Source of the DNA: a virus
IMG/VR virus record: IMGVR_UViG_3300045970_000271
Span: 1-27,363 of that record
Direction: 5' to 3' (one strand)
DNA length: 27,363 nucleotides
A program made the translations under genes and the position numbers. Below, piece by piece: positions 1,518-25,591 of the stretch. The first letter of the stretch is position 1; each line of letters opens with the position of its first letter. The notes under the pieces are model-generated. The model was not told where the DNA came from. It worked only from the letters and a program-made list of their open reading frames with translations, and did no database searches.

Positions 1518-1525
1518 ATATTTAG
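1518..1525 (-). promoter_or_regulatory. TAAATA late-promoter-like motif (CTAAATAT)
   Basis: CTAAATAT on the minus strand, 22 nt upstream of the ATG at 1495 and just downstream of the terminator at 1535-1560. It matches the core of motifs found in most other gaps of the late region and resembles the T4-type late promoter TATAAATA. Confidence 0.45.
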
Positions 1526-1534
1526 TAGCAAATG

Positions 1535-1560
1535 AAAAAGGCGACCTCAGTCGCCTTTTT
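1535..1560 (-). terminator. Rho-independent terminator, bidirectional
   Basis: A perfect 11-bp stem (AAAAAGGCGAC / GTCGCCTTTTT) closes a CTCA loop and gives a T5 tract on either strand. It lies 18 nt after the stop of the 1579-1968 gene and ahead of the next promoter-like motif. The hairpin core is nearly the same as that of the terminator at 25032-25055. Confidence 0.85.
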
Positions 1561-1578
1561 ATGTAACTATATTAGTTG

Positions 1579-1968
1579 TTAAGCGTAAGCAACCTTCATA
1601 GTTGCCTGAATGCTGTCGCCTGATGCTAAGTTAACAACTGGAAAAGTTGCTGACATATACATATTGCCAGCAGTAGATGCATCAAATAAACCTGCCTCAT
1701 CAACTGCAATTGACGCACCAGCCGTAACTAATCCAACTACTTGATATGTGTCATTAGATGTCGTTGTAGTAGCTACAGACGATGTGCCTGTTGCACGAGT
1801 GCTATATTGAGTAGATAATGCTGAGTCAGCAGCGGAAGCAGTGCGAGCCGCTCCTGTTGCGCCTGTGCCTACTCCAAGATATACAGGCTCAGTGCCTGTT
1901 CCTTTGATGCGGTTAGCAGTAATTGCTCTGCCGCTGTTTGTTAAAACTGTTCCTGTTCCGAATGCCAT
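1579..1968 (-). CDS. Phage structural protein, fibre/decoration type
   Basis: A 129-residue protein rich in Gly, Ala, Thr and Ser. The N-terminal pattern (LTNSGRAI-ANRIKG-GTEP-YLG-GTG) and the C-terminal GLFDASTAGNM-MSATFP are typical of small phage tail-fibre or virion decoration proteins that sit after the tail-tip gene. AAGGAA lies 7 nt upstream of the ATG. The start overlaps the 3' end of the preceding small gene by 28 nt. It shares its style, including a FDA/YDAATAGN signature, with the 2133-2531 product, so the two are probably distant paralogues. The exact position in the particle is not known. Confidence 0.7.
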   Translation of the reverse strand: MAFGTGTVLTNSGRAITANRIKGTGTEPVYLGVGTGATGAARTASAADSALSTQYSTRATGTSSVATTTTSNDTYQVVGLVTAGASIAVDEAGLFDASTAGNMYMSATFPVVNLASGDSIQATMKVAYA

Positions 1969-2129
1969 AATATGGTTTCCTTTATATTTGTATTGCTATC
2001 TGATGTAGCACTTATTGTTTGATTTGGTGCGTAGCGAGCCACGACACCTAAATCCTCTATAGTTCCGTTAGCACGAATTACCACAATTGATAATTCTGCT
2101 TCTTTTACTGTTGCTGTCGCGTTATTCAT
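1941..2129 (-). CDS. Small hypothetical protein (62 aa) between two fibre-like proteins
   Basis: ATG at 2129, 3 nt after the upstream stop codon, so translation is probably coupled; no clear ribosome-binding site is seen. It fills the only gap between the two fibre-like genes. Residues 13-30 read VVIRANGTIEDLGVVARY, a short beta-rich stretch. The last 28 nt overlap the next gene, and its C-terminal residues are read from the ribosome-binding site and first codons of that gene, which suggests the C-terminus is under little constraint. No known family is recognised. Confidence 0.5.
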   Translation of the reverse strand: MNNATATVKEAELSIVVIRANGTIEDLGVVARYAPNQTISATSDSNTNIKETILWHSEQEQF

Positions 2130-2132
2130 TGA

Positions 2133-2531
2133 TTAAGACAATGTAATAGTTACGCCACCAGCCGCTACAGATGCTGTATCACCTGCCAAAATGTTTTTAG
2201 CTACTGTCAACACGCCAAAGCCTAAGCAATTGCCTGCTGTAGCAGCATCATATAAAACACCATAAGTTAAATTTGCACCTGATAACCAATCTGCTGAAGC
2301 AGCGGTGAACGTAATTGCACCAGTGTTAGTAATAGCACCTGCTGCCGCAGTGCCCCAAACGCCTGCTGTAGCCACGCGAGCATAAGCACCGCCTGTTGGT
2401 TCAGTTACGTTAGTTCCACCCACTGTAGGAGTTGTTGAAGATAGAGCCAAATATGTAGTTGGCATTGTGTAAGCGGTCTTTCCGACCTGATGTTCGAGCA
2501 AGGAATTTGCTAAGAAAGTAGTTGCAGGCAT
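2133..2531 (-). CDS. Phage tail fibre-like structural protein
   Basis: A 132-residue protein with the signature of a widespread class of small phage structural proteins: TYLALSSTTPTVGGT near residue 26, EPTGGAYARV near 44, a central AGAITNTGAITF block and GVLYDAATAGN near 89. Such proteins usually lie next to tail-fibre genes and are annotated as tail fibre or virion structural proteins. AAGGAGA lies 7 nt before the ATG. The gap upstream, after the GIY-YIG gene, carries a TAAATA motif. It is related in pattern to the 1579-1968 product. Confidence 0.7.
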   Translation of the reverse strand: MPATTFLANSLLEHQVGKTAYTMPTTYLALSSTTPTVGGTNVTEPTGGAYARVATAGVWGTAAAGAITNTGAITFTAASADWLSGANLTYGVLYDAATAGNCLGFGVLTVAKNILAGDTASVAAGGVTITLS

Positions 2532-2580
2532 TGTTATGTCTCCTTAATAATTATTTGTTGAGGCAATCTTTGCCTTCAGT

Positions 2581-2967
2581 TTATTTATCCTTTGATTTCT
2601 TTTCCCTCATAGCAGCCTTCCACTTTAATGTTCTGTCTGCAAGAGCCTCAGCGGTGTCTGTATGCTTATATCCAGCAATTCCTTCACCACCATCTGTCTT
2701 ATTAAGTAATGGCCCTTTACCTAAGTCTTTCCTACCGATAATATTGATCAAATGCATTTCAAGATCAAATGCACCTTGCTCTGAATCTTGTTTATAGATC
2801 ATTGGTTCCATAGAAAACCCTTCTTTTGATCTCTTTTTATTCACATTCGCTAAATGATGTTTACCCCATTTATGTTTCCAAGCACGATCTTCACAACCTT
2901 TACCTATGTATATAGGCAGATTTGTTTTTGGGTCTTTATAGACGTATGTGTAGAATTGTTGTGTCAT
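2581..2967 (-). CDS. Free-standing GIY-YIG homing endonuclease, short form
   Basis: A 128-residue protein with an N-terminal GIY-YIG nuclease domain of the LEM-3-like type. Visible elements are Y6-T-Y8, the YIGKG motif at 20-24, Arg28 (DRAWKH), Glu70 in the FDLE helix and GR at 78-79, followed by N89-x-TDGGEG. These positions correspond to the Tyr, Tyr, Arg and Glu of the GIY-YIG active site, so it should be catalytically intact. It stops soon after the domain and lacks the NUMOD3 repeats of its three paralogues. It is closest to the nuclease at 20482-21120, including a 30-bp identical DNA stretch. AAGG precedes the ATG by about 7 nt. It sits between two intact virion genes and is not inside an intron. 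Confidence 0.85.
   Translation of the reverse strand: MTQQFYTYVYKDPKTNLPIYIGKGCEDRAWKHKWGKHHLANVNKKRSKEGFSMEPMIYKQDSEQGAFDLEMHLINIIGRKDLGKGPLLNKTDGGEGIAGYKHTDTAEALADRTLKWKAAMREKKSKDK
2582..2589 (-). promoter_or_regulatory. TAAATA late-promoter-like motif (GATAAATA)
   Basis: GATAAATA on the minus strand, overlapping the stop codon of the GIY-YIG gene and about 50 nt upstream of the 2133-2531 gene. It belongs to the family of TAAATA motifs in late-region gaps. Confidence 0.35.
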
Positions 2968-3062
2968 AACTTACCTTAAGTTGATACCCTTAACCCCAAG
3001 TAATGGGAGGGAAGCAAACGGGTAAGCATTTGTTTTCGTCCTGCAGGAACTATCCCTACAAT
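2968..3062 (-). promoter_or_regulatory. Non-coding leader of GIY-YIG gene, similar to leader at 24921-25004
   Basis: About 95 nt between a TAAATA motif and the nuclease start. It aligns to the leader of the GIY-YIG gene at 24174-24920: both have TAGGGATAG just after the motif, then AAACAA 14 nt later, then a small hairpin (here CAAATG / CGTTTG) and a CCCT stretch. It also holds a palindromic TCCTGCAGGA. A role in timing or attenuating nuclease expression is inferred. Confidence 0.4.
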
Positions 3063-3070
3063 TATTTATC
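3063..3070 (-). promoter_or_regulatory. TAAATA late-promoter-like motif (GATAAATA)
   Basis: GATAAATA directly after the TAG stop of the upstream gene, about 95 nt before the GIY-YIG start. It heads the shared nuclease leader. Confidence 0.45.
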
Positions 3071-3432
3071 TATCGCGTAATCTCTCTATTAATTATAAAA
3101 GTTCCTTTTGATGGCTTATATACTTTTCCGAGAGAACTAACAATTTCGAGGTCATAGAAAGCTTCTAACGTATCATCTTCCTTATTAGCGAATTTGATAC
3201 CTTTTGTTTCATCAGGGGTAAAGAACCAAATGATCGTATTCAATGCAATTACTAATTGAGCATTCTCTGTTGTTGCATCAATAATTGCACTTGTATTTCC
3301 ATAACTGCGACGAACTTGTGCTCTTGCAGTAAACCCACTTAAATCAAATACCGCTCCATCCGTATCCAAAAGAGTGAATGTATATGCGTATGTACTGCCT
3401 TGATCTATCGTTATATTCTTAATATTTGTCAT
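3070..3432 (-). CDS. Baseplate upper protein-like (BppU-type) structural protein
   Basis: A 120-residue protein with the pattern of small Ig-like phage baseplate/tail proteins: an IDQGSTYAYTFTLLDTDG start, DLSGFTARAQVRR near residue 31, a central variable strand region, then FYDLEI near 91 and a closing GTFIINREITR. Related proteins are found downstream of tail-fibre genes in many siphoviruses and are thought to link fibres to the tail tip. AGGGA lies about 9 nt before the ATG at 3432. The assignment is by pattern, not by a catalytic motif. Confidence 0.65.
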   Translation of the reverse strand: MTNIKNITIDQGSTYAYTFTLLDTDGAVFDLSGFTARAQVRRSYGNTSAIIDATTENAQLVIALNTIIWFFTPDETKGIKFANKEDDTLEAFYDLEIVSSLGKVYKPSKGTFIINREITR

Positions 3433-3453
3433 TTGTATCGTCCCTGTAATTGA

Positions 3454-3461
3454 TATTTATT
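3454..3461 (-). promoter_or_regulatory. TAAATA late-promoter-like motif (AATAAATA)
   Basis: AATAAATA overlapping the TAA stop of the 3460-4038 gene, 21 nt upstream of the 3432 start. It is in the short gap before the baseplate-like gene. Confidence 0.3.
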
Positions 3462-4038
3462 ACCAAGTGAATGAACTTGCTGTAGAGATAGATGATGCAG
3501 AAGCTATACTCGTCTTTAGCGAATATGAGTGAGAGTAGTTATAAACTATTTGTGCAATCATAGCCGCGTAAAATGCATTCCATGCAGATACAGTAGTTAT
3601 AGAAACAAATGTGTTATCTATTGCTCTCCATTCACCAACCCAGCCAGAAGGTAATGCATTATTCAATACGACATAAGCATTAATTCCGTCAATATCAATT
3701 CTGCTATATTGATCCATTGAAAAGTCTTTGCTGCTGTAAGTGAAAGTAGATTGATTAGCAGAAATCCGTGCCTGTTTAATCGCTTCCGTTTGTGCTGCTT
3801 GGACATCAGCAAGTGTTCTCAAATCTTCCCATGTCTTAGTAGTCCAGTTGAATGTGTAGTAAGATGCGGGTTGAGCAGCCATTTGAACCCAAGCAGTTCC
3901 GTTATAGTAATAATCTGATGCAGTAGGTTCACCCTCAATAAGTGACTCACCGCTTCCTAATGTACCAACGCTGTCTGCTGATGGCATATCATATATTGCT
4001 AACTGCTTTCCATCACTATTAATTTTTGTATATTTCAT
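3460..4038 (-). CDS. Tail fibre-associated protein, DUF4376-like
   Basis: A 192-residue protein. The N-terminal part (YYYNGTAWVQMAAQPAS, TWEDLRT) looks like a tail-fibre assembly or fibre tip segment. Residues ~85-180 (KQARISANQSTFTYSSKDFSMDQ..., EWRAIDNTFVSI, a Trp-rich helix, then HSYSLKTSIASA) match the pattern of DUF4376 domains found C-terminally in phage fibre accessory proteins. It starts 4 nt inside the J-like gene (ATGA overlap), so it is translationally coupled to the tail-tip protein and probably acts with it, as a chaperone or distal tip subunit. Confidence 0.6.
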   Translation of the reverse strand: MKYTKINSDGKQLAIYDMPSADSVGTLGSGESLIEGEPTASDYYYNGTAWVQMAAQPASYYTFNWTTKTWEDLRTLADVQAAQTEAIKQARISANQSTFTYSSKDFSMDQYSRIDIDGINAYVVLNNALPSGWVGEWRAIDNTFVSITTVSAWNAFYAAMIAQIVYNYSHSYSLKTSIASASSISTASSFTW

Positions 4039-7000
4039 CTCTTAGTTCCTATTGCAAATAATGAAGCACCAGACTTCACTATAGATGTACCTGTTCCAGT
4101 AATTCCATCTATATATTGTGATATGCCGCGTAGTTCAATATGTCTATTTCCACCGCCAGATACAGATGTTGATATAGCAAATGGACCTTCTAAATTTGTC
4201 TCAATTTGTTGCACTCCATCTACCCATATTGATACCTTTGGATATAAAGTAAAACTCACTCCTGAACCACCGCCAGATACTAAAGGAGCGGCGCCCATTG
4301 CACATATCCATATCGGTGCCCCTTGGACATCAACATAGCAATCTAAGATTACGGTTGTTGAGTATCTGTTACATACAATATCTGATGTCGTTTTAACACT
4401 AACAGGGAATGTAATTGCATTACCAGCAATCTGTAATGTGTTAACTGCCAAGTCGGCAATAAATGTAGATGCATTACTGCTATTGATTTGCTGGTTCACT
4501 GTAAAGTTGAACGGACCATAATCAACCATAGTTCCATTATTCGGAATACCACCTGGCATTACAGAGTAAGAAGGAATTAAGTAAATCTCAATCTTATAAA
4601 TTGGCTTTGCTACGCCACTAACAATCGCATTAGCAGTAAATGCCATATCTTGCCAACCAGAAACTGTGTTGTCTGTAATTGGAACCCAGTTATCCACCAT
4701 TTGTGTTAACGATGAATTGGTATACAACCTAACCAAGAACTGAGGCTTACCACCACCAACATTTGCAACCATAAACATGCTGCAAGTACCAGTAATATAT
4801 GACCCAGCAGGTAGCGGTTTGGTGTATGTGTACCCTTTAACCGCCCATGTGTCGCTATATGTTGTTAACCTAACTGAGTGAGGTGCGTTATGTGTATTGC
4901 TTGTTGTTTTTGCAATAGTGCCACCTGCAGGACCATAGAATGTCCATCCGTCAGGTGCTGTTCCTGTTGATGCACCACTCCATGCTGCATAACTTGAGTT
5001 GAATCCCATGTGTGCAGAATCGTCTGAACCCAACACACTACCAGCGGAAAGTATTACCGTTCCATTCGCATCTTTGATACTCAATCCTCGAGCATCAATC
5101 TGTGTTGCTGTAATAGTATTAGTAGCAATTCTGTCACCAGTAATAGTTCCAGCTGCAATTTCAGCGGCAGTAATAGTACCAGCAGCAATCTTAGATGCAT
5201 CAATAGTATCTGCACCAATATTATTTGCTGTTAATATACCAACCTGAGCAGTTCCAATTGCAGCACCATCAATATATGTAGTTGCATTAGCGGAAGTGAT
5301 TTTGCTAAGTGATGCAAATGTACCTGCTCCAAGTCCAGTTAGTGTGACATTGCTATTCAACCAACCAGCATCTGGTGTTATGTAAGTAGATGTCCATTTA
5401 GTAGGAGTACCACCTGAATCAAATAGTAAAGTTCCATCTGCCTTCTTAATTGTTAATCCACGAGTATCAATCTTTGCTGCTGTTAAAAGTCCTGTTATAT
5501 GTGCATCGTTGATCGTCGCATTCGCAATTTGTGCTGATCCAGTAATAACAGCAGAGCCTGTAACTAACTGACTTGAGCCAATTGTGCCAGCCAATATAAA
5601 GCCACCATCCATGTATGCATTACCATCACCATACTCTAATGACGTGCCGCCTCTATACGTGGCGACAATCATTTTGTTAGTCGCTATTGCATTTGTTATC
5701 GTGGACGTAGCAGAGAGCGTGGAAGACCCCTCCGTGAGGTAGATATAAAGCATTCCACTTGTCCATGCCGCATTGCCAGCACTTACTGCCCAAGTCGTAC
5801 CTAATCCGCTGCCTTGTGTTTTAGATGCAGTGCATGAAGTCCACGAAACATAGTTAGTAGATGGACTATTTGGAGTCCAAATGATGCCCGTTAACTTATA
5901 CTCATTTGTATTATTTGGTGATGATGTTGTGCCACTTGCTGATGCAGATACATTTAATCCTGTGGCATTTGCTTTATCTGACTCAGCAGTAAAGTGGTCA
6001 TAAGCCGCAACCTTGTAATAGTAAGTCGTTCCATCTGCCAACCCAGCGGATAGGAATGCGTTACTATCTAAGTCAGCAATTAAGTTAGCAGCACTTGGTG
6101 TAAACGTTGAAGCGACATCACGCCAAATCAAGTAGCCAGCAAAGTCGTTATCTGCAATAGTATTCCATTTCAAGTTAATACCTTGGAATCCTCCATTAGT
6201 TGTTAACCCAGTTACCGCAACAGGTGCTGGATTATTAAATGTAGCAGTTACTGGATTAGATATGTTGTTATTTGAATCACGACAACGAACTTGAACCTGC
6301 ACATTACGACGTGGACCGCTATCAGCCATATTCATGGAATATGTGTAGGAGAACGTCTGTGTTTGTCCTGCGTTGACGGACTTAATATATTCCGTTCTTA
6401 CAGTAGTTGAACCAGTTGTCTCTATAAACCGAACATCAAAGTCTTTGAGTGTTGCTGCTACTGTTGAATTAGTGGAAGGATTAACCCAAGAGAAGTTTAT
6501 ATCCATACCACTAAACGTAGTACCACCACCTATAATTTGAAGCGTTGTAGGGGCATTTAATGGGCTTGCTCCACCTCCTGCACTGCTTATGGTGTAAGTG
6601 CCTGTCGCATCAGGTCCAATAACTCCGTTAACCGCATTTACTGCATACACTTGAACTTCGTAAGTTCCTTCTAATACATTAGATAACTCATAGGACGAAG
6701 TAGTTAGCGGAACCTCAACCCATGAAGTTGCTGACCTGCGATATCTAAGAACATAACTGCTAACAATTCCCTGCGATGGTCTTGTCCAACTTATCATCAA
6801 TGATCTATGAATGACATTGTTTACATTAGTAGAAGCCTCACGGAACGCTAAGTTAAGTGGTGCAGATGGGATAGTTACTGGAGTTTGGTAAACAGGCGTT
6901 GGTCCTGTTGGTGTATTATCTACACGACCAAATTTATTTGGGTCATATTCAACAGCAGCGACTTCATATTTGCCTGTACTTGCTTCTGTTACACCAATTA

Positions 7001-8753: not shown

Positions 8754-8756
8754 TTA

Positions 8757-10525: not shown

Positions 10526-10526
10526 A

Positions 10527-10874: not shown

Positions 10875-10884
10875 GATTTGATCC

Positions 10885-13944: not shown

Positions 13945-13945
13945 A

Positions 13946-14851
13946 TTAAGAGTTACGAGTAATTACGATTGAAGATGCAGAAGTGTTGTCATAGAGTGCA
14001 GTAAAAGGAACAGTTAATGAAATTGGTCCTTGTCCTGTAATAGTGCGAGTTAATCCTGTGTATCTAACATTTGGAAGATTAAATTCCATTGTGTTAGAGC
14101 CATCTGACAAAGTGAAATCCAATGTCGTAGCCGTTCCATTTAGATACTTGTTAGCAATAACAGCATCTTGGAACATAACAGTCGCTTGACCTGAAACAGT
14201 AACAACACCTGACGATAAGTTTTGTGTCGTTGATCCGCCTAATGTAAAGTTAGACGATGTTTTGTTATCAATATTCAAAGTTAGTGCAGTTAACAATGCT
14301 GTGGTTGTTCCTGCTTCTTTAAATGTTCCGCCTAAGTGAGTATATGGAGCACTTTCCATAACAGCGGTTGGAGTTGCACAAATAGTGGAACTTGCTAATG
14401 CTGCCGCTTTACCTAATACAGAGAATTTGGCACTTACAACACCAGTGGTATTAATAGTTAATGATAACTTGTCCATCATTACACCTGTATAAGTCCAATA
14501 CTGGTTTACATCTAAAGCACCTTGTTCAACAGTAAATGAACTTTGTGTATTACCAAACTTCAATACATTGCTTGCCCAAGAGCCTGTAAGTAATGATGCA
14601 AAGAACGGGTCAAAGTTGTGATGAGTTAAATTTACATCTAAATCACCAGCGACGTGGGAGTTACCATTAAGTGAGTATCTTTGTTGTCTATCAGCACGGA
14701 TAGATGCATCAGAGAATTGGTCAATAGTTGAATTAATATTGAACGATACGAATGGAATTAGTGTTGTTGCTGGCGTTGTTGGTGTCACACCAAAAGTAGA
14801 TTCTGACACGTATGTAACTTGTGAACGTGCCCCTTGTGCGAATGTAGTCAT
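13946..14851 (-). CDS. Major tail tube protein
   Basis: A 301-residue, beta-rich protein (GARSQVTYVSESTFGVTPTTPA start, then FNINSTIDQFSDASIRADRQ) of the type placed in phage tail tube families of siphoviruses. Many of these carry an N-terminal tube fold and an added Ig-like outer domain, and the length here allows that. It follows the tail terminator-like gene and precedes the chaperones, the standard place for the tube gene. AAGGAGT lies 7 nt before the ATG, and a TAAATA motif lies in the upstream gap, consistent with high late expression. Confidence 0.88.
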   Translation of the reverse strand: MTTFAQGARSQVTYVSESTFGVTPTTPATTLIPFVSFNINSTIDQFSDASIRADRQQRYSLNGNSHVAGDLDVNLTHHNFDPFFASLLTGSWASNVLKFGNTQSSFTVEQGALDVNQYWTYTGVMMDKLSLTINTTGVVSAKFSVLGKAAALASSTICATPTAVMESAPYTHLGGTFKEAGTTTALLTALTLNIDNKTSSNFTLGGSTTQNLSSGVVTVSGQATVMFQDAVIANKYLNGTATTLDFTLSDGSNTMEFNLPNVRYTGLTRTITGQGPISLTVPFTALYDNTSASSIVITRNS

Positions 14852-14890
14852 TTGTTGGACTCCTTATAATTGTTATTCTTGTCCTGCATT

Positions 14891-14898
14891 TATTTATC
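14891..14898 (-). promoter_or_regulatory. TAAATA late-promoter-like motif (GATAAATA)
   Basis: GATAAATA in the 49-nt gap before the tail tube gene, 39 nt upstream of its ATG and just after the stop of the tail terminator-like gene. Confidence 0.45.
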
Positions 14899-14900
14899 TC

Positions 14901-16470: not shown

Positions 16471-16473
16471 TTG

Positions 16474-16686
16474 TTAACTCCTTAATGGCTGGCCTCTAAA
16501 TGCCCAAGCCTTACCCATTGATGTTCCATCGCCATTAGCAAAGTGAAACGTAGATGCTGATATAACTTTAGTCATTTGCTCATGTGTTGAATCTTCTGGG
16601 CAAGTAGGAATATCTACTTCGCTCTTAACCATACGCTCTACATTTACCCCACATTTCAGACAACGATATTCAAATAACCGATACAT
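16474..16686 (-). CDS. FmdB-like zinc-ribbon small protein
   Basis: A 70-residue protein starting MYRLFEYRCLKCG, with Cys9-x2-Cys12 as in FmdB-type zinc ribbons. The second metal half is altered: instead of CxxC it has Cys29 and His35 (CPEDSTH). The rest (KVISASTFHFANGDG) also follows the FmdB pattern. Zinc could still be bound by three Cys and one His. Small zinc-ribbon proteins occur near capsid genes in some phages, with unknown roles. The ribosome-binding site AGGGG lies in the end of the GIY-YIG gene. Confidence 0.7.
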   Translation of the reverse strand: MYRLFEYRCLKCGVNVERMVKSEVDIPTCPEDSTHEQMTKVISASTFHFANGDGTSMGKAWAFRGQPLRS

Positions 16687-16687
16687 A

Positions 16688-17248
16688 TTAATTTCCCCTT
16701 TTTCTATTTATCTGTGCATTAATTCTTGCTTGTGACCAGGGTTTACCTTTTCTGGCTTTGGATAGAGCTTCTTTATGCTCAACAGTAAATGTCTTACCGA
16801 ATTTCGCTAAAGACATCATTAACTTAGTTTCATTGCTTCGCTTCCTACCTGTTGTTTGTGAAATTCGTTTGTTGATGGTATATAGTGACTGCTTTTGACC
16901 TTTTTGCGATATTGAATTTGCTAATCCAATTTTTCTCTTAGTCTCTTCAGTATGTTTTCTTCCACTTTCTCCCTCACCACCGTTAGTCAAATTAAACAGA
17001 GTTCCAGTTCCTAAGTCAGCTCTACCATATTGTTCAATCCAAACTTCCTCCATGAACAATGCAGTAGCATCATCTATTTCAAAGTTTATTATTGGATATA
17101 TTTCATATCCTTCCCTAATTCTTTTTCGCAGCAAATTTCCCAACCGTGTTTTAGCAGATAAGTGGTCCCATGCTCGTTCATTAGTTCCTTTTTCAATATA
17201 AACTGGAATATTTGTTTTTGGGTCTTTATATAGATATGTATAAATCAT
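16688..17248 (-). CDS. GIY-YIG homing endonuclease with altered YIG motif
   Basis: A 186-residue protein from the ATG at 17248. This start lines up with the other three nucleases (MIYTYLYKDPKTN); a TTG 5 codons upstream is the alternative. Y3-T-Y5, Arg25 and Glu67/68 are present, but the usual YIG is YIE (residues 17-19): the conserved Gly is Glu. NUMOD3-like repeats (HTEETKRKIGLANS; SNETKLMMSLAKFGK; TVEHKEALSKARKGK) follow to the C-terminus and probably bind DNA. Closest paralogue in the window: 24174-24920 (shared FMEEVWIEQYGR). No ribosome-binding site is visible; TATAAATA sits 4 nt before the ATG. It lies between the capsid terminator and the zinc-ribbon gene. Confidence 0.82.
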   Translation of the reverse strand: MIYTYLYKDPKTNIPVYIEKGTNERAWDHLSAKTRLGNLLRKRIREGYEIYPIINFEIDDATALFMEEVWIEQYGRADLGTGTLFNLTNGGEGESGRKHTEETKRKIGLANSISQKGQKQSLYTINKRISQTTGRKRSNETKLMMSLAKFGKTFTVEHKEALSKARKGKPWSQARINAQINRKRGN

Positions 17249-17252
17249 ATGA

Positions 17253-17260
17253 TATTTATA
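17253..17260 (-). promoter_or_regulatory. Exact T4-type late promoter sequence TATAAATA
   Basis: TATAAATA on the minus strand, 4 nt upstream of the GIY-YIG ATG at 17248 and 9 nt after the capsid-gene terminator. If transcription starts 6-7 nt downstream, as at T4 late promoters, the message would begin at the start codon. Confidence 0.5.
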
Positions 17261-17269
17261 CAAATGAGA

Positions 17270-17290
17270 AAGGGGACATAAAGTCCCCTT
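17270..17290 (-). terminator. Terminator downstream of major capsid gene
   Basis: An 8-bp GC-rich stem (AAGGGGAC / GTCCCCTT) with a 5-nt loop, 46 nt after the capsid stop codon, followed on the minus strand by TTTCTCATTT, an imperfect T tract. It would limit read-through from the highly expressed capsid gene. Confidence 0.65.
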
Positions 17291-17336
17291 GTCTGTTAGG
17301 TAAATGTGCTAAAACATTTTTACCTTACTATTTGCC

Positions 17337-18266: not shown

Positions 18267-18305
18267 AATATGTCTCCTTTATAGTTATATGTGTGGCGTT
18301 ATGTA

Positions 18306-18935
18306 TTAGTTCATACCCATGCCGTACTTAGCCAAAATCTTCTGCACATCAGATGGGTTTTTAGCCATTGCCATCTCTGTCTTAAACGATGCTATTGGAG
18401 TTGTTTCTCCTGTTCGTTTAAGTGCTGGCGTTTGCACTTCCTGAAACAATACACTATCTGTCTTCTTTAATTCTTCAATTACGGACGCAATAGATTTAGT
18501 ATCCACTTCACCCTTATCATCTAACGTAATCTTAGATCGATCAACGACTTTTAATGCAGTAGGTAATGCCTTAACATTCGCCTTAGTTAGTTCCTCTTTT
18601 AGAACAGCATCTATGCGAGTGTTTTGTAATGCACTTCTTACCTCATTTAACTCATTAACCGTTGCTTCGTATTTGGTTTTAAGATCACCTGCTTCGTCGT
18701 CGTTTTTGAGAGCGGCTAATTCCGTCTCAAGTTCCTTACGGCGTGACTGGTTATCCTTCTCTCCGCGTCGAGCTTTCGCAAGTATTTCCTCAGTCTTAGC
18801 AAGTTTCTCTTGTAGTTCTTTTAACTGCTTTTCAGCATCAGAACTTTCGTTCTTATTAATCGTTTCGTCTTGCTTTGTAGATTCACTACTTACTTCTTTG
18901 GATGCATCCGCATCATTAACATTGGTATCCACCAT
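18306..18935 (-). CDS. Capsid scaffolding protein
   Basis: A 209-residue, highly charged protein. The acidic Ser/Asp/Glu-rich N-terminus (~1-35) leads to a long coiled coil (~35-105, KQLKELQEKLAKTEEILAKARRG and on) and a C-terminal helical segment (NPSDVQKILAKYG) that may bind the coat protein. This is the typical build of a phage scaffold, placed between portal and capsid genes. AAGGAG lies 5 nt before the ATG, and a TAAATA motif lies 33 nt upstream. No protease gene is seen nearby, so a P22-like scaffold release is possible. Confidence 0.85.
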   Translation of the reverse strand: MVDTNVNDADASKEVSSESTKQDETINKNESSDAEKQLKELQEKLAKTEEILAKARRGEKDNQSRRKELETELAALKNDDEAGDLKTKYEATVNELNEVRSALQNTRIDAVLKEELTKANVKALPTALKVVDRSKITLDDKGEVDTKSIASVIEELKKTDSVLFQEVQTPALKRTGETTPIASFKTEMAMAKNPSDVQKILAKYGMGMN

Positions 18936-18968
18936 ATAACTCCTTTATGCCCATCCAGGCTGATCATT

Positions 18969-18976
18969 TATTTAGT
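18969..18976 (-). promoter_or_regulatory. TAAATA late-promoter-like motif (ACTAAATA)
   Basis: ACTAAATA overlapping the TAA stop of the portal gene, 33 nt upstream of the scaffold gene. The ACTAAATAAAT context is shared with the motif ahead of terS (22944-22951). Confidence 0.45.
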
Positions 18977-20489
18977 CTTTCTTTTCTTCAGGTGTGCCAT
19001 CTATCTCAATCTTTTTGCCTTGCTCAATATTCTGGTCAATGGTTTCTACTTGTGCAGAATCTAATCCACGAAGTTTCGCGTCTCGCTTTTGAAATTCAAT
19101 AATATCTAAATACTTTTCTTCTGCTTCTTCGCATGTAATTCCATATACAGCCATCAGGTAGTCAATAGTTGTTGCCCTACCTTCTGCAATACGCAATGAC
19201 CAAACAGTTTCTTGGATTTGAATATCAACAGGCATTACAGGTTGGTTAAACTCTACGAATAGCTGTGAATCAGCAGGGAATGCGTTTACACCTGTCGCAG
19301 TATTAAACACTTGTGCCAACACGCGATAGAGGCGTTTAAAGCCTGCCTCAAACATTCTCTGACGTAGTTTGCGTAGGTCTAAGTTGTCGCCTTCTTCTAC
19401 AACCAACTGAAAGCCACTCTGTGCTCTGCCTTGTCCTGCGACTTCAATACGCACTGCCCAATCACCTGCAAAGCCTCTAACAAATTGCTCTACCACTTCT
19501 GTTAGTGGTTTAAGATCAATATTTGGGTTCTCGTATCTAACAAACGGGTTATCAACTCCCATACTGTCTAATACAACTGCTTGACCTGGACCTGCTGTAT
19601 AACCACTGTTTAGTGATGCAGGTATCATGCGTGGTAATGGACTACCATATACCTGTGCGACTTCAATATTGTCTACACCATCGCCAGTTGGTCGCATATT
19701 CGTGAACAGGGTAGACATCTTGCTCCATAAAATAGAGTATTCAGAGTCTGTTAAGTGCAAGTTATACATTTCATTCATATTGATGAGTGACTTATCTTGC
19801 TCGCACCAAAAGCCATTACGTGGGGTATTAGTATCGTAAAACACTGCAATAGGAATGATCCCAAATGGGTTTGCTTCTTGACTTACTACTGCAATTGATT
19901 GTTTATCTTCCTTTAACTCATATACGTCAGTTAATGTCCAAACGCAATACGAGTTATCTGATGTTCTATGTACCATTCCAACAGGCTTGCGATTTAACGG
20001 ATTGATAATTACTTCGCAGTTACCGCGATGCAATATATCTAATACCCATTTCTTTTCCTCTGAGTCCCACTGCACAAATACAATCGCTGTTTTAAGCAAA
20101 CGCAATACAGCATCAAAATTGGATGCAAACTCAATCAGTTCGTTCTTAGTCAACATTTCGTTGATTAATGCTGTAGCTGCTTCGTTAGTAGTTACTTCGT
20201 CTGCGTTATAGATTTCTAATATAGGTGGTTCGTCTTTAAAAATACGACCAGATTTCTCAATTACCATCCGTGTGATATTACGGAAGCGAGGTATAAGCCC
20301 ACGCTCACGCCATTTGTTTCTACCTTTAGATGGATCGTTAAGAACTTTTATTAGCTCTGCTTCTTGTTGTCCATCCAAATAATTTAGAGCCTTAATAGCG
20401 TCCACTGCTCGATCTGTCTGCAACAAATCCACCAATTCCTTGGCCGTTCTCCCTAATGCAATGATTTCTTGCTGTGTACTATTAAACAT
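18972..20489 (-). CDS. Portal protein
   Basis: A 505-residue protein of portal size at the portal position (between TerL and scaffold). The N-terminus is helical with GRNKWRERGLIPRFRNITRMVIEKSGRIF (residues ~55-85), the pattern of the DUF4055-like portal group; a wing region and stem follow (NMNEMYNLHLTDSEYSILWSKM near 240), then a QSGFQLVVEEGDNLDLRKLRQRMFEAG helix near 360. The portal forms the dodecameric DNA channel. Its ribosome-binding site (AAAGGA) and first 8 nt lie inside the end of the upstream GIY-YIG gene, so the nuclease inserted without losing portal expression signals. Confidence 0.85.
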   Translation of the reverse strand: MFNSTQQEIIALGRTAKELVDLLQTDRAVDAIKALNYLDGQQEAELIKVLNDPSKGRNKWRERGLIPRFRNITRMVIEKSGRIFKDEPPILEIYNADEVTTNEAATALINEMLTKNELIEFASNFDAVLRLLKTAIVFVQWDSEEKKWVLDILHRGNCEVIINPLNRKPVGMVHRTSDNSYCVWTLTDVYELKEDKQSIAVVSQEANPFGIIPIAVFYDTNTPRNGFWCEQDKSLINMNEMYNLHLTDSEYSILWSKMSTLFTNMRPTGDGVDNIEVAQVYGSPLPRMIPASLNSGYTAGPGQAVVLDSMGVDNPFVRYENPNIDLKPLTEVVEQFVRGFAGDWAVRIEVAGQGRAQSGFQLVVEEGDNLDLRKLRQRMFEAGFKRLYRVLAQVFNTATGVNAFPADSQLFVEFNQPVMPVDIQIQETVWSLRIAEGRATTIDYLMAVYGITCEEAEEKYLDIIEFQKRDAKLRGLDSAQVETIDQNIEQGKKIEIDGTPEEKKD

Positions 20490-21120
20490 TTTTTAATCCT
20501 TTGTTCCACGGAACTCGCCCTTTGTAATTAGGGTTTTCTCTGGCTCTTTGTTTTGCTTCTTCACTCATCTTCCTATTTTCAAAAGTTTTACCTTTAGTAG
20601 GAGATGGACGACCTCTTTGTTTTGCTGCTCTCTTTTCAATAGTTTCTTTGCTTTGTTTTTTGCCAAGATTAGCGATTGAATTTTTTGTACCAATTTTTTG
20701 TTTAGTTGTCTCTTTGCAGGCTCTACCTGTATTAGAGATTCTCATTGCTTCAATAGCTTTAATGTTTACTCCACGCTGTTTTGCAGATATAGATTGCTTC
20801 TCTTTTGTTGACTCTTTAACTACCCAACCAGAGTTTCCTTCGCCACCATCTGTTAAATTAAGTAATGGACCTTTACCTAAGTCTTTACGCCCGATAACAC
20901 TAATCAGATGTATTTCAAGATCAAATGCACCTTGCTCTGAATCTTGTAGGAATAACTTTGGCTCTACTGCATAATCTTCCTTAGTTCTCTTTTTTATTAA
21001 ATTACCTAAGTGATGTTTTCCACGAAAGTGATCCCAGGCTCTATTTCCATGACCTTTGCCTACATAGACAGGTAGATTTGTTTTTGGATCAAAGTAAACA
21101 TAGGTATAAAATTGCTTCAT
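20482..21120 (-). CDS. GIY-YIG homing endonuclease, free-standing
   Basis: A 212-residue protein. The nuclease domain has Y5-T-Y7, YVGKG at 19-23, Arg27 and Glu69, all expected active-site positions. Basic NUMOD3-like repeats follow (CKETTKQKIGTKNSIANLGK; SKETIEKRAAKQRGR; MSEEAKQRARENPNYKGR), ending PWNKGLKNV. It is the close paralogue of the nuclease at 2581-2967 (DSEQGAFDLE, IGRKDLGKGPLLN shared), with long identical DNA stretches. It lies between TerL and portal, overlapping the portal by 8 nt. No clear ribosome-binding site; ACTAAATA ends 4 nt before the ATG. Confidence 0.88.
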   Translation of the reverse strand: MKQFYTYVYFDPKTNLPVYVGKGHGNRAWDHFRGKHHLGNLIKKRTKEDYAVEPKLFLQDSEQGAFDLEIHLISVIGRKDLGKGPLLNLTDGGEGNSGWVVKESTKEKQSISAKQRGVNIKAIEAMRISNTGRACKETTKQKIGTKNSIANLGKKQSKETIEKRAAKQRGRPSPTKGKTFENRKMSEEAKQRARENPNYKGRVPWNKGLKNV

Positions 21121-21124
21121 CTTA

Positions 21125-21132
21125 TATTTAGT
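21125..21132 (-). promoter_or_regulatory. TAAATA late-promoter-like motif (ACTAAATA)
   Basis: ACTAAATA fills the 12-nt gap between the TerL stop and the GIY-YIG ATG. As at 17253-17260, it is too close to the ATG to leave room for a normal leader. Confidence 0.35.
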
Positions 21133-22416
21133 TCAACGATGAATGGTTAGTGAACCCTGCCCAATTACTGGGTAACGATAGGTCAGAAAGTAGCCTAGGG
21201 CGTCCAAACAATGGTCAAGGCCACTATCTTTATCTGGTTTACCATTTTTATATCCTTGCTGCTCAAGTCCCTTTACCAATACTTTGCACTTCTCCAAGTT
21301 AACAAAGCATCTAACTTCATCAGCAGCATTTTTAAATAATGCGTTTACAGATGGAACACGCTCCTTAACGATAGATGGATTATTTCCCTTATAGAAGCAT
21401 TGGAACCCTGCATCCTTTAGTAGAGTAATGCTGCTAACAGATGCATTAGCAGAGGCTGATTTACCGCTACTGTCGGGGTATGCGTACATTACGCGGTTTG
21501 GGTATTGCCTCTTTAGTCGTGCAATCATCGTCATAGTGTTCTTCTCAGCAGTAATCTCGTCAATTACATATACCTTACCATTCTCAACCACGTTAATAAC
21601 TGCACTCATATTCTCAACGTTAAAGTCCATTCCAACGTGCAGTATTGCATTTGCAGGGAAGTCTTTTAGTGTCTTGTTTGTGTTGTTAACTGCTGGGTCA
21701 AAGCAATAGTAAACAGCACCTGAGAATGCGTTAACAAACTCACCGTATATCTTAGCTTTCGCTTGCAATGGTGTATAGCGTTTAATCTGATCTTGTATAT
21801 AGGATGGAGGTAAGAATATATTTTCAGTCGTAGCGACTTGAATTAGCTTATGCTGTGGAGTTGCATTTTCTACGAATAGGTGATGCACTGCATGAAAGCC
21901 CTCAGGCGTTGTGGTGCAAAATGTTTGCCTTAGTGTTGCCTTTGGGTCTCTGCATCTATCGTTGAGCGCATTCCAGCAGGCTAATGCTTCCTCTTTGTTT
22001 GGTATAGTGTCAAACTCATCAATAAACGCGAATGACACGTTATAACCAACTAATGTTCTACGCCAGTTTTCAGCAGACACTAACCATAGCTTCTGTTGTC
22101 CACTTCCTAAATCAAATGTATAAAACGCTGGGCTGTTTCTACCACCACCGTTATAGGTATATTTAATACCTAATTCTTTGCAGGTGTTATCCATCTCTGA
22201 GGTAAAGATGGACAACTGTGGTCCTGTTGGCTCGCAGCCTATAGCACTGCACCCTTTATTGATTTGAAATAGATGTAATACCTTATAGCAGGCTGCTTTT
22301 GTTTTGCCAGAGCCTAACCCAGCTACTAATGCAAGGTATCTACTATCGTCGTGAACAAACTTTGCTTGGTAAGGTAATAGCTTTACTTGTTGTATTTTAT
22401 TCTTCTGAGTTGCCAT
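21133..22416 (-). CDS. terL: Terminase large subunit
   Basis: A 427-residue packaging motor. ATPase: Walker A GLGSGKT at 33-39, Walker B AFIDEFD at 130-136 (Asp133, Glu134), and a coupling motif candidate TTTPEG near 168-173. RNase H-like nuclease: Asp264 in HVGMDFNVENM, Asp315 in YAYPDSSGKS, and Asp401/405 in GLDHCLDALGYF. All key acidic residues are present. The enzyme cuts concatemeric DNA and pumps it through the portal. The start overlaps the terS end by 20 nt and has no good ribosome-binding site, so translation is likely coupled to terS. Confidence 0.95.
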   Translation of the reverse strand: MATQKNKIQQVKLLPYQAKFVHDDSRYLALVAGLGSGKTKAACYKVLHLFQINKGCSAIGCEPTGPQLSIFTSEMDNTCKELGIKYTYNGGGRNSPAFYTFDLGSGQQKLWLVSAENWRRTLVGYNVSFAFIDEFDTIPNKEEALACWNALNDRCRDPKATLRQTFCTTTPEGFHAVHHLFVENATPQHKLIQVATTENIFLPPSYIQDQIKRYTPLQAKAKIYGEFVNAFSGAVYYCFDPAVNNTNKTLKDFPANAILHVGMDFNVENMSAVINVVENGKVYVIDEITAEKNTMTMIARLKRQYPNRVMYAYPDSSGKSASANASVSSITLLKDAGFQCFYKGNNPSIVKERVPSVNALFKNAADEVRCFVNLEKCKVLVKGLEQQGYKNGKPDKDSGLDHCLDALGYFLTYRYPVIGQGSLTIHR

Positions 22417-22921
22417 TTGTATCGTTATCGTTGTTATTCTCTATTGCTATATCACCTTGCACTGCCGCAGCGATAATCTTTTGCTGCTCATCATCACTAA
22501 ATGCTTCAAAACTAAACTCAGATGCTACGTTTTCTACTTGCACCTTAACTGTACGTGTTGCTGGTGCCCATGCCTCTAACGTTTTCAAATCGTCACGGAT
22601 AATCTTTATCTTTAGTCCAGCACTTGTTTCTGCGTCATTAAGTATTGCGTCCTTCATTTCAACACGAGATATTTCATACTCTGCACGAGCAAGGTCTAAT
22701 GCCTCTCTTACTTTGTAAACACCTGTTGGGTATTCATAATCACATAGTTGTTGGAACTGTGCAAGTGTTATGCCTAAACGTGTTGCAATACTTTTGTCGC
22801 TAATTCCACGGCTTGCTAAATCACATAAGGTGACAAACCAAGAGGCATCTTCTTTTGCATTTGCCTTCTTTTTTGGTGGGTTAGTAGCAGTGTATTCCGT
22901 ATCTTTTAAGTGTTTAGACAT
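22397..22921 (-). CDS. terS: Terminase small subunit
   Basis: A 174-residue protein upstream of and overlapping terL. An N-terminal helix-turn-helix (SDKSIATRLGITLAQFQQLCDY, about 40-60) fits a DNA-recognition role, a central helical region (ARAEYEISRVEMKDAIL...) would form the ring, and the acidic Asn/Asp-rich C-terminus would contact TerL. GGAAC lies ~6 nt before the ATG. An ACTAAATA motif is 22 nt upstream, in the gap shared with the divergent lysis genes. It is the first gene of the late region on this strand. Confidence 0.85.
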   Translation of the reverse strand: MSKHLKDTEYTATNPPKKKANAKEDASWFVTLCDLASRGISDKSIATRLGITLAQFQQLCDYEYPTGVYKVREALDLARAEYEISRVEMKDAILNDAETSAGLKIKIIRDDLKTLEAWAPATRTVKVQVENVASEFSFEAFSDDEQQKIIAAAVQGDIAIENNNDNDTNGNSEE

Positions 22922-22943
22922 AGTAGTTCCAATAGATCATATT

Positions 22944-22951
22944 TATTTAGT
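22944..22951 (-). promoter_or_regulatory. TAAATA late-promoter-like motif ahead of terS
   Basis: ACTAAATA on the minus strand, 22 nt upstream of terS, followed by AATATGATC. It faces away from the similar plus-strand motif at 22978-22985. Confidence 0.5.
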
Positions 22952-22977
22952 GTCAAAAATCCGTGATACGGAATCTG

Positions 22978-22985
22978 GCTAAATA
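22978..22985 (+). promoter_or_regulatory. TAAATA late-promoter-like motif ahead of lysis genes
   Basis: GCTAAATA on the plus strand, 22 nt upstream of the ATG at 23008. The spacing is the same as for terS on the other strand, which supports a paired divergent promoter. Confidence 0.5.
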
Positions 22986-23007
22986 TCTGCATCAACAAGG
23001 AACTCTA

Positions 23008-23370
23008 ATGATGGAAATTGACTCAGTAACATTATGGACAGCCGCTGGTTCAATAGGAACGTTAGCTGCAATCGCAGGGGCTATTGTTGGAGCTATAAGG
23101 AAAAGTGACATGACTGGATATCATGAACGAGTTACTGAAGTAGACTCAAAAGTAAATGCCTTATCTAATGTAGTGTCTGAAAAGGCGCATAAAGACGAAG
23201 TTAGACGTATTGAGGCTCGCTTTGAGAAAGATATTACTGACTTACGCACAGATCAGAAAATAGGATTCTCAGAAGTTCGTAATGATATTAAAGATATGCG
23301 ATCTGACTTAATGGATGCATTAAGAGCACACGAAATCGGGGATAGAAAAAGAAGGCACGACGACGAATGA
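23008..23370 (+). CDS. Small membrane-anchored coiled-coil protein, probable lysis-region gene
   Basis: A 120-residue protein from the ATG at 23008, 5 nt after AAGGAA; a second ATG follows at once. One membrane segment (about 8-28, LWTAAGSIGTLAAIAGAIVGAI) is followed by RK and then a long charged coiled coil (~40-112). Acidic residues before and basic ones after the segment suggest that the coiled coil faces the cytoplasm, which argues against an inner-membrane spanin. It overlaps the holin-like gene by 4 nt (ATGA), so the two probably work together, perhaps as holin and regulator. No specific family is recognised. Confidence 0.65.
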   Translation: MMEIDSVTLWTAAGSIGTLAAIAGAIVGAIRKSDMTGYHERVTEVDSKVNALSNVVSEKAHKDEVRRIEARFEKDITDLRTDQKIGFSEVRNDIKDMRSDLMDALRAHEIGDRKRRHDDE

Positions 23371-23636
23371 ACGTAGTCAAACACATACTCACAGGAATTG
23401 ACGGTGAAACATACGATCCGTCACGTGTGCTATGGACTATTGGTGTTTTGTTTTTTCTTGTTTGTGAGACTATTACTGTTTATAGGAGCGGTGTTTTTGA
23501 TCTTGTTAACTACAGTATTGCATTTTCCACCTTATTAGCAGGTGGTGCGGTAGGGGTTAAGATTAAGGAAACAACAGAGCCACCCGCTAAGGCATCAATT
23601 CAGCCCATCGCTGCAACGAAAGACGTAGAGCAATAG
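23367..23636 (+). CDS. Holin-like membrane protein
   Basis: An 89-residue protein with two membrane segments (about 21-38 and 45-65), a cytoplasmic-type N-terminus and a hydrophilic, mixed-charge C-terminus. The start (HILTGIDGETYDPSRVLW) and LLAGGAVGVKIKETTEP are typical of a common small phage membrane protein usually called a holin. A class II holin topology is likely. It is coupled to the preceding gene by ATGA and followed by a strong terminator. No endolysin gene lies in this window, so the pair is incomplete or the enzyme is elsewhere. Confidence 0.7.
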   Translation: MNVVKHILTGIDGETYDPSRVLWTIGVLFFLVCETITVYRSGVFDLVNYSIAFSTLLAGGAVGVKIKETTEPPAKASIQPIAATKDVEQ

Positions 23637-23656
23637 TAGGGCGTATATACAAAGAA

Positions 23657-23679
23657 AAAGCCGCTCTAAGAGCGGCTTT
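23657..23679. terminator. Bidirectional terminator between convergent genes
   Basis: A 10-bp stem (AAAGCCGCTC / GAGCGGCTTT) with a TAA loop, T-rich on both strands. It lies 20 nt after the holin-like stop and 21 nt after the convergent secreted-protein gene. Confidence 0.85.
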
Positions 23680-23700
23680 CTTGTTTTGTGGTTGTTTACT

Positions 23701-24102
23701 TTAGTCTATTGCTTTCCAACCTCTTGTTTCTATCCAAGTTACTTTTGTATTTGGAAGATTAACAACTGCTGAATATACGCCTACCATATATGCTATGCAA
23801 TTAGCGGTATATTTTTTGTTTTCAATTGTGTATACAACATCTGTTGATGTATAGAATTCAGTTGTATTTGTCTCATCGTCAACTCGTGTCCCACCATATA
23901 GATTGACAGTGTTGGGAGTAAATTTTTTCCCATCAAGTGAGTCACTTATTTTATTAATTAGCAAGTTACTACATGCTTCAGTATTTGATACCAGCATATT
24001 AGCAATAAATTTGCTACCACTTGAAGTAACTTTGACTCCAGCGTTTGCACTAACTGCACTAACCATAACTAATGCAGCGATAACCGTTTTAATATTTGCC
24101 AT
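23701..24102 (-). CDS. Small secreted protein of unknown function
   Basis: From the ATG at 24102 (133 aa; preceded by GGGGATTAGGA) it has a clear signal peptide: MANIKTVIAALVMVSAVSANA, with an Ala-x-Ala-type cleavage site near residue 21. An ATG 5 codons further upstream is the alternative start. The mature protein of ~112 residues has two cysteines (TEACSNL; TANCIAYM) that could form a disulfide in the periplasm. No family is recognised. It has its own sigma70-like -10 element and a terminator, as morons do. Possible roles are host surface alteration or superinfection exclusion, but nothing in the sequence proves this. Confidence 0.7.
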   Translation of the reverse strand: MANIKTVIAALVMVSAVSANAGVKVTSSGSKFIANMLVSNTEACSNLLINKISDSLDGKKFTPNTVNLYGGTRVDDETNTTEFYTSTDVVYTIENKKYTANCIAYMVGVYSAVVNLPNTKVTWIETRGWKAID

Positions 24103-24135
24103 TTTCCTAATCCCCATTAAGTTGTTGATATATGT

Positions 24136-24141
24136 ATTATA
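24136..24141 (-). promoter_or_regulatory. Possible sigma70 promoter (-10 TATAAT) for secreted protein gene
   Basis: An exact TATAAT on the minus strand, 33 nt upstream of the ATG at 24102. The -35 region (TCGCTT, 17-nt spacer) is poor. This gap lacks the TAAATA motif present in most others. Confidence 0.4.
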
Positions 24142-24173
24142 ATTCCACCTTGTGAAATAAGCGAGTCTTTTGG

Positions 24174-24920
24174 TTATATTGCTTTTTCTGTGAAACTAGC
24201 ATACTCTTCTTTTGATATGTAGTAATACTCTTTTGGGCGGGATTTTATCCTATTCCAAATAGTTGATATGTTTATATTATTGGCATTTGCAGCTATTGTT
24301 GGTGAAGCGTATGGACCAGTATGTGTCATTATTGGTTTTTGTTTTGCTAAGGATAGTTTTGCTTTATGTTCAGCAGATAGAGTTTTTCCTTTTTTGTAGG
24401 AATGATTTCTACCTTTATGTTCAGCAGATAGAGTTTTTCCTTTTTTGTAGGAATGATTTCTACCTTTATGAGATACTGACATTTTTATTTTAGTTTCTAC
24501 AGAAAATATTTTGCCTTTGTTAGCAGCAGACTTTTTTGCTATAACTTCTGGTCTATTCTGTGCCTTTATATTTGCTTCTGATATTTTCGCCTTATGCTCC
24601 GCAGAAGGAGTTATTCCTTTTCTCGATGGTGGTGAATCACCACCAGCAGTTATGTTAAATAACGTTCCTTCGCCTGTCTTTTCTCTACCATATTGTTCAA
24701 TCCAAACTTCTTCCATAAAGTGTGCGTGTTTCTCATCTACTTCGTTATGAATAATTGGTTGCGGGTTATATCCTTCACTTATTCGTTTTCGAAGTAAGTT
24801 ACCTATCCTTGTATTTTCTTTTAGGTGCTTCCAAGCTCGTTTATTACAACCTTTACCTACATATATAGGCAGATTTGTTTTTGGGTCTTTCCAAAGATAT
24901 GTGTAATATTGATTTGTCAT
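24174..24920 (-). CDS. GIY-YIG homing endonuclease with NUMOD3 repeats and C-terminal HTH
   Basis: At 248 residues, the longest of the four. Nuclease domain: Y6-T... Y8, YVGKG at 20-24, Arg28 and Glu70/71, intact. NUMOD3-like repeats fill ~100-195 (SAEHKAKISEANIKAQ; SVETKIKMSVSHKGR; SAEHKAKLSLAKQK). The C-terminal ~40 residues (SPTIAANANNINISTIWNRIKS) look like a small helix-turn-helix of the kind found at the end of homing endonucleases. A 17-residue block (starting RNHSYKKGKTLSAEHK) is exactly duplicated in tandem. GAGG lies ~7 nt before the ATG. It is paralogous to 16688-17248; the upstream leader resembles that of 2581-2967. Confidence 0.9.
   Translation of the reverse strand: MTNQYYTYLWKDPKTNLPIYVGKGCNKRAWKHLKENTRIGNLLRKRISEGYNPQPIIHNEVDEKHAHFMEEVWIEQYGREKTGEGTLFNITAGGDSPPSRKGITPSAEHKAKISEANIKAQNRPEVIAKKSAANKGKIFSVETKIKMSVSHKGRNHSYKKGKTLSAEHKGRNHSYKKGKTLSAEHKAKLSLAKQKPIMTHTGPYASPTIAANANNINISTIWNRIKSRPKEYYYISKEEYASFTEKAI
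24363..24470. repeat. 51-bp tandem duplication inside GIY-YIG gene
   Basis: A 51-bp unit occurs twice with no mismatch, followed by 6 more matching bases. It keeps the frame and duplicates one 17-residue NUMOD3-like DNA-binding repeat. Exact identity indicates a recent event. Confidence 0.95.
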
Positions 24921-25004
24921 AATGTTGCCTCATTTGTGCCGCTTATTAGTAGGGCAGCAAGTGGGCATCACTTGTTTTTGGACTCGATTTCCTATCCCTA
25001 TAAG
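24921..25004 (-). promoter_or_regulatory. Non-coding leader of GIY-YIG gene, similar to leader at 2968-3062
   Basis: Shares TAGGGATAG, AAACAA, the hairpin (here CAAGTG / CACTTG, a perfect 6-bp stem) and TTGCTGCCCT with the leader upstream of 2581-2967, in the same order and nearly the same spacing. Confidence 0.4.
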
Positions 25005-25012
25005 TATTTATG
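25005..25012 (-). promoter_or_regulatory. TAAATA late-promoter-like motif (CATAAATA)
   Basis: CATAAATA heads the nuclease leader, about 84 nt upstream of the GIY-YIG ATG and 19 nt after the terminator of the H-NS-like gene. Confidence 0.45.
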
Positions 25013-25031: not shown

Positions 25032-25055
25032 AAAAAGCGACCTAAGTCGCTTTTT
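25032..25055 (-). terminator. Terminator of H-NS-like gene
   Basis: A 10-bp stem (AAAAAGCGAC / GTCGCTTTTT) with a CTAA loop, 16 nt after the stop at 25072, T-rich on the minus strand. It is nearly identical to the terminator at 1535-1560. Confidence 0.85.
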
Positions 25056-25494: not shown

Positions 25495-25519
25495 AAAGTG
25501 CTCCGTTGGTTAGTGAAAT

Positions 25520-25545: not shown

Positions 25546-25549
25546 CACA

Positions 25550-25583: not shown

Positions 25584-25591
25584 AAGCACTT

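Follow-up and report, generated by a model that had tools for sequence, protein, structure and literature searches.

The late genes of lambda-like siphoviruses are usually thought to form one long operon under antitermination. T4-type phages carry PeSL cassettes, terminator-plus-promoter units that lie in intergenic gaps, are shuffled between phages and use sigma-70 early promoters. Our subject is a TAAATA motif in the gaps of the late region of a 27.4-kb viral record (IMG/VR record IMGVR_UViG_3300045970_000271, positions 1 to 27,363; hereafter the window), which derives from a lambda-like siphovirus. The late promoters of T4 (gp55/gp33/gp45) have no −35 element, are AT-rich downstream and carry a TATA box that begins at −13, roughly one turn of the helix ahead of the start, so that TAAATA falls at −11 to −6 (PMC2988020). 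The middle/late promoters of phiEco32 (tAATGTAtA) are phage-specific as well; here gp36 reads a single element, and transcripts start 6–8 bp downstream (PMC8948821). The stoperators of mycobacteriophage L5 and other cluster A mycobacteriophages are repeated asymmetric motifs in the short intergenic gaps of temperate siphoviruses, oriented with transcription (PMC9283540).

A small clade of temperate phages in Burkholderiales bacteria carries the same 8-letter motif, (G/C)ATAAATA, before most of its late transcription units. Judged from the sequence, these sites are very probably promoters, and we hold with good confidence that they are single-element late promoters driving separate units and read by host RNA polymerase under a phage-encoded factor. 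They are promoter-like because of their spacing to gene starts, the placement of terminators and their geometry at leaderless ATGs.

The window has a GC content of 39% and carries terminase, portal, scaffold, capsid, tail and J-like genes on the minus strand, together with four GIY-YIG genes. The remainder of the genome comes from G001, a second record of 38,102 bp with overlapping ends that matches the window at 99.99%; a primase/helicase block is part of this phage. As relatives we used G003 (37.5 kb, with an end repeat, TerL 80% identical), G012 (25.7 kb) and the fragments L004, L019 and L020, as well as prophages of Leptothrix discophora CCM 2812 (LEP), Sapientia aquatica SA-152 (SAP) and Variovorax sp. 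J22R193 (VAR), whose TerL is at 56–66%. The six genomes compared below are thus G001, G003 and G012 (G1, G3 and G12), of which the first two are complete and the third is incomplete, and the three prophages, whose bounds are approximate and of which that of Sapientia is partly masked. Given these prophages, the known hosts are Burkholderiales. In 398 other genomes of this order there was no further prophage of the clade. Among cultured phages only TerL matches below 40% and capsid matches below 35% identity were found, and both of those examined, JL1 and DMCA, lack enrichment of the motif.

Fourteen curated gaps, each 9 nt or longer and together 874 nt, contain 10 TAAATA, in nine gaps, which makes it the commonest of all hexamers there. 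Dinucleotide shuffles of the same gaps gave 1.39 ± 1.13 occurrences with a maximum of 6, and none of 2000 reached the observed count, bearing out the excess that a preliminary description of the window had noted over the one or two sites expected from base composition. Permutations of the same letters mostly occur 0–3 times in the gaps, and the two exceptions (ATAAAT and AAATAT) overlap TAAATA itself. The excess is a property of the gaps only: the whole window has 25 copies of the hexamer where 36 are expected, hence no enrichment. The A-rich gaps and the GC content of the window might suggest an artefact of composition, but the excess survives shuffles that keep composition, the motif is conserved in a locus of 58% GC, and most of the more distant relatives of similar or lower GC show no enrichment; the shuffles exclude this reading for practical purposes.

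Upstream of genes, TAAATA is the most frequent hexamer in G1, G3, LEP and VAR, joint first in G12 and near first in SAP, and in all six genomes its count exceeds the maximum of 200 shuffles. The DNA of the window and G3 is only about 75% identical where it can be aligned at all; despite such divergence, the hexamer is kept in the same gaps, namely the one upstream of terS, the terL-portal and portal-scaffold gaps, and the one that follows the post-capsid terminator. All nine sequences covering the scaffold and portal positions have it there, and a divergent pair precedes terS in the window, LEP, SAP, VAR and the more distant L064. More distant relatives by TerL or capsid are mostly without enrichment, while L064 and L065 (TerL 36–39%) have the motif at the same positions. 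Where the gap before a start measures 15 nt or more, the motif precedes 40 of 73 starts in the late block and none of eight in the replication block; like T4 late promoters, it stands before late and not before early genes. We found no report of such a motif in a siphovirus in the open-licence literature.

Motif discovery by unbiased expectation-maximisation on 335 upstream regions from nine sequences, seeded with common and with random words, converged each time on GATAAATAAA, with a core 91–98% invariant, and so recovered (G/C)ATAAATA. The logo of 68 sites reads (G/C)(A/C)TAAATA with A-rich sequence downstream and shows no −35 element, every position upstream of −2 carrying less than 0.2 bit. 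A sigma-70 scan returned fewer promoter-like sites than shuffled sequence did, and Rfam gave nothing above the gathering threshold on the window. The sites in the window are:

1519–1524, minus strand: TAAATA behind a terminator hairpin (about 1538–1557), 23 nt before the ATG of a tail-region gene ending at 1202
2582–2587, minus strand: GATAAATA, overlapping a GIY-YIG stop codon; the ATG of gene 2133–2531 follows after 50 nt
3063–3068, minus strand: GATAAATA, with a leader of about 95 nt before GIY-YIG gene 2581–2967, similar to the leader at 25005
3454–3459, minus strand: AATAAATA, 21 nt before the ATG of gene 3070–3432
14891–14896, minus strand: GATAAATA, 39 nt before the ATG of tail protein gene 13946–14851; the same gap has the motif in LEP, SAP, VAR and G12
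16705–16710, minus strand: GATAAATA, within the 3′ end of a GIY-YIG gene; the ATG of gene 16474–16686 follows after 18 nt
17253–17258, minus strand: TATAAATA, behind the post-capsid terminator (17270–17290), 4 nt before a GIY-YIG ATG; leaderless class
18969–18974, minus strand: ACTAAATA, 33 nt before the scaffold ATG; the gap has the motif in 9 of 9 sequences covering it
21125–21130, minus strand: ACTAAATA, between terL and portal, where the ATG of an inserted GIY-YIG gene follows after 4 nt
22940–22949, minus strand: TAAATAAATA, upstream of terS, two overlapping copies (22940 and 22944); half of the divergent pair
22980–22985, plus strand: GCTAAATA, 22 nt before the ATG (23008) of a divergent putative lysis/membrane gene
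25005–25010, minus strand: CATAAATA, behind a terminator (about 25032–25055), with a leader of about 84 nt before GIY-YIG gene 24174–24920
27219–27356, minus strand: TAAATA-N5-ATG in three copies (27219, 27285 and 27351), in 66-bp tandem repeats at the 5′ end of a helix-turn-helix (HTH) gene

All eleven sites of the preliminary description are present, with exact TAAATA coordinates shifted by 1–2 nt in places, and the divergent gap between terS and the lysis gene does carry a site on either strand, in both cases 22 nt from the respective ATG. The site at 16705, which was overlooked because it does not lie in a gap, is likely a further functional one; its spacing matches that at the orthologues in G3, LEP and L020. 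The exact TATAAATA reported at 17253 is there too, but it is not the typical form, because T occupies the first position in only 6% of the 68 sites, where G or C is preferred.

The motif mostly lies 18–29 nt before the start, with a Shine-Dalgarno sequence in between. The distribution of distances is bimodal, with 10 sites at 3–5 nt, a single one at 6–14 nt and a mode at 21–23 nt. A terminator was called just upstream of the motif at 15 of 79 motif starts, as compared with 7 of 253 starts without motif (Fisher p = 5.8e-6). At those 79, no terminator was detected in the interval from motif to start. When TAAATA-N3..6-ATG was sought before open reading frames (ORFs) of 35 aa or more, N4 and N5 were the only spacings to appear; they stand at the HTH gene of every one of the six genomes, at several GIY-YIG and HNH endonuclease genes and at a few others. 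Since the motif stands exactly 4 or 5 nt before these ATGs, it would take the −10 position of leaderless mRNAs; if the mRNAs are leaderless, the spacing would put TAAATA at −11 to −6 or −10 to −5.

We propose that the sites act as −10-type single-element promoters with the consensus (G/C)ATAAATA that drive separate late units. These would comprise terS-terL, portal and scaffold-capsid, the head gene that follows the post-capsid terminator, the tail genes and the divergent lysis genes, and also the HTH gene and the resident homing-endonuclease genes. Transcripts would start 5–6 nt past the motif, giving most genes a short 5′ leader, and the HTH gene and many endonuclease genes a leaderless mRNA. 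Some observations weigh against this proposal: 33 of the 73 qualifying late starts have no motif (several are internal to a proposed unit, such as capsid genes after scaffold, or are gene-call errors), a weak hairpin with a T run, below the terminator detection threshold, separates motif and start at SAP 37982, and the starts themselves, like the terminators, were chosen by simple scripts.

The asymmetry of the sites, their place in gaps and their orientation with transcription would also suit stoperators, bound by a prophage repressor that halts elongation as in L5, and these temperate phages do have a conserved HTH protein. Unlike stoperators, however, the sites lie behind terminators, none having been found in front of one, and at leaderless starts; the fixed 4–5 nt to leaderless ATGs and the almost empty 6–14 nt zone are promoter geometry, and the AT-rich sequence with its near-invariant core resembles a melting element. 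Replication genes, the expected targets of a repressor, lack the motif, and no match to an L5-type repressor was identified. We therefore consider stoperators improbable.

Promoters could be read by the host or by the phage. The Leptothrix genome (4.6 Mb) contains 16 (G/C)ATAAATA, 12 of them in the prophage region and 4 outside, and the Variovorax genome (5.8 Mb) also 16, with 10 in the prophage and 6 outside; the AT-rich Sapientia genome, with 499 sites, is uninformative. That no phage sigma factor was found might favour a host sigma factor, but such a reader is very unlikely because it would have almost no chromosomal targets outside the prophage, and the motif fits TATAAT poorly and has no −35. 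We are thus confident that the reader is phage-encoded, in agreement with the phage transcription factor postulated in the preliminary description, and host RNA polymerase would use the sites only once reprogrammed by it.

The likeness to T4 late promoters that had been pointed out also holds: the sites are promoter-like and late-specific, with a single −10-type element, a TAAATA core at the same inferred position, AT-rich sequence downstream and no −35, and they serve late genes on either strand with homing endonuclease genes nearby. They differ in their first base, G or C here and T in T4, and in belonging to temperate 38-kb siphoviruses rather than to myoviruses. The further suggestion of a gp55-like or other sigma factor found no support, as hidden Markov models of T4 gp55 (phrog_234) and sigma-70 region 2 (PF04542) had no match in G001, G003, the 25.7-kb G012 or the LEP, SAP and VAR prophages. 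The analogy is valid for architecture, not for membership. If a genuine gp55-like or ECF-like sigma of the phage had diverged beyond the reach of profile searches, it would explain the shared −10-only architecture, core and position; the variant late promoters of Aeromonas phage Aeh1, with a/gC instead of TA at −13/−12 (PMC2988020), speak for it, as does the single element read by gp36 of phiEco32, although the latter has another sequence and phiEco32 encodes a sigma factor, whereas none was detected here. Against it stand the negative searches, two of them in complete genomes, and the lack of any non-structural protein common to all six genomes other than the HTH protein; we regard a diverged sigma as rather unlikely.

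Comparison of all non-structural ORFs left one family present in all six genomes:

26899–27345, minus strand: gene for a Fis-type HTH protein with a core of about 65 aa, candidate late transcription factor

The protein has 64–148 aa, is encoded after the replication genes and is recognised by its profile with E-values of 4e-21 to 4e-31. It belongs to the Fis/HTH_8 family: Pfam HTH_8 (PF02954) is above cut-off in four of the five members scanned, the LEP protein being the exception, and ZraR in the PDB is matched at 9.8e-8. The AlphaFold model (pLDDT 80) has Fis and NtrC-type domains as its best Foldseek matches, with weak E-values (0.03 and above). Sigma region 2 is missing, PF04542 being absent and the model consisting of a three-helix HTH only. 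A motif at leaderless distance stands before the gene in every one of the six genomes; four of them (SAP, LEP, VAR and G12) have, still farther upstream, a terminator and another TAAATA.

On these grounds the HTH protein is our leading, though tentative, candidate for the reader or its co-factor, which would switch on its own gene in an autoregulatory loop. The stronger claim, that a Fis-type HTH of about 65 residues, lacking any sigma domain, retargets host RNA polymerase to an autonomous −10-type octamer at all late units and at its own leaderless gene, is less probable still. Such a role is called into question by the recognition helix, which varies (RETVWRWKRK, RSYVFHLIQK, RNTIAIWLKV) while the motif is constant, by the adjoining probable origin, which the protein could bind instead, and by the lack of an HTH match in the motif-bearing L064 and L065, which are incomplete fragments. 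Co-occurrence of gene and motif may reflect common descent. The HTH gene is absent from the distant relatives G16, G18, G15, G4, G7 and JL1 and weak in G17, which fits linkage with the motif but is no proof, relatedness being a confounder.

The tandem repeat at the 5′ end of the HTH gene (window 27163–27363) has three 66-bp copies, two in G001, each with a motif and an in-frame ATG. In SAP, LEP, VAR and G12 (L045, L042, L048 and L049), a TAAATA upstream of the HTH gene is followed by a stretch of 73–148 nt with a terminator at its end, which is a candidate small RNA, with a CCTCCT-containing segment common to SAP and LEP. Window positions 25495–26890 are gene-poor and rich in TGTCAAG/CTTGACA repeats, which recur in G3; SAP, LEP, VAR and G12 have GTCAACC/GGTTGAC repeats in a gene-poor stretch 600–700 nt downstream of the HTH gene. 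These stretches are probable iteron-type replication origins.

The GIY-YIG genes of the window were named from the sequence YTYxYxDPKT...YIGKG, as Pfam gave only NUMOD3, in two of the four:

2581–2967, minus strand: GIY-YIG gene, downstream of motif 3063
16688–17248, minus strand: GIY-YIG gene, inserted between motif 17253 and the downstream head gene
20482–21120, minus strand: GIY-YIG gene, inserted between terL and portal, immediately after the motif
24174–24920, minus strand: GIY-YIG/NUMOD3 gene, downstream of motif 25005

In the terL-portal gap of the window, TAAATAtaag is followed by the GIY-YIG ATG, and in G003 the same TAAATAtaag is followed by the portal leader, indicating that the endonuclease gene sits directly behind a pre-existing motif; relatives without the insert have TAAATA 21–29 nt before portal. 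The post-capsid GIY-YIG gene is flanked by motifs, 17253 before it and 16705 near its 3′ end, the latter with the standard spacing of 18 nt to the gene that follows. A stretch of 105 bp comprising terminator, motif and leader is 79% identical in front of a window GIY-YIG gene (24174–24920) and of an unrelated HNH gene in G003; this cassette, common to GIY-YIG and HNH genes, differs from PeSL cassettes in its late-type element. We rejected the idea that homing endonucleases alone brought the motif, since it also occurs in endonuclease-free gaps of several phages. The signal is common to the resident mobile genes, not introduced by them alone.

The long leaders of endonuclease genes (window 24921–25004 and 2968–3062; G3, L015, 9721–9802) contain short possible upstream ORFs (MPTCCP.., MLTRLLP..), and the GIY-YIG/NUMOD3 gene contains an exact 51-bp tandem duplication (window 24362–24463). 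Elsewhere in G3 (L015, 204–686), the H-NS C-terminal domain is matched weakly and under the Pfam cut-off, pointing to a possible phage H-NS-like protein.

This clade of temperate siphoviruses thus appears to run many short late units with T4-late-like promoters and no recognisable sigma factor. A late switch based on the HTH protein, if true, would differ from gp55, ECF-type phage sigmas, Q antitermination and the Mor/C activators. If confirmed, the system would represent a new way to reprogram RNA polymerase, through a compact 8-bp promoter nearly absent from the GC-rich hosts, and would offer a testable case of homing endonucleases settling directly behind late promoters.

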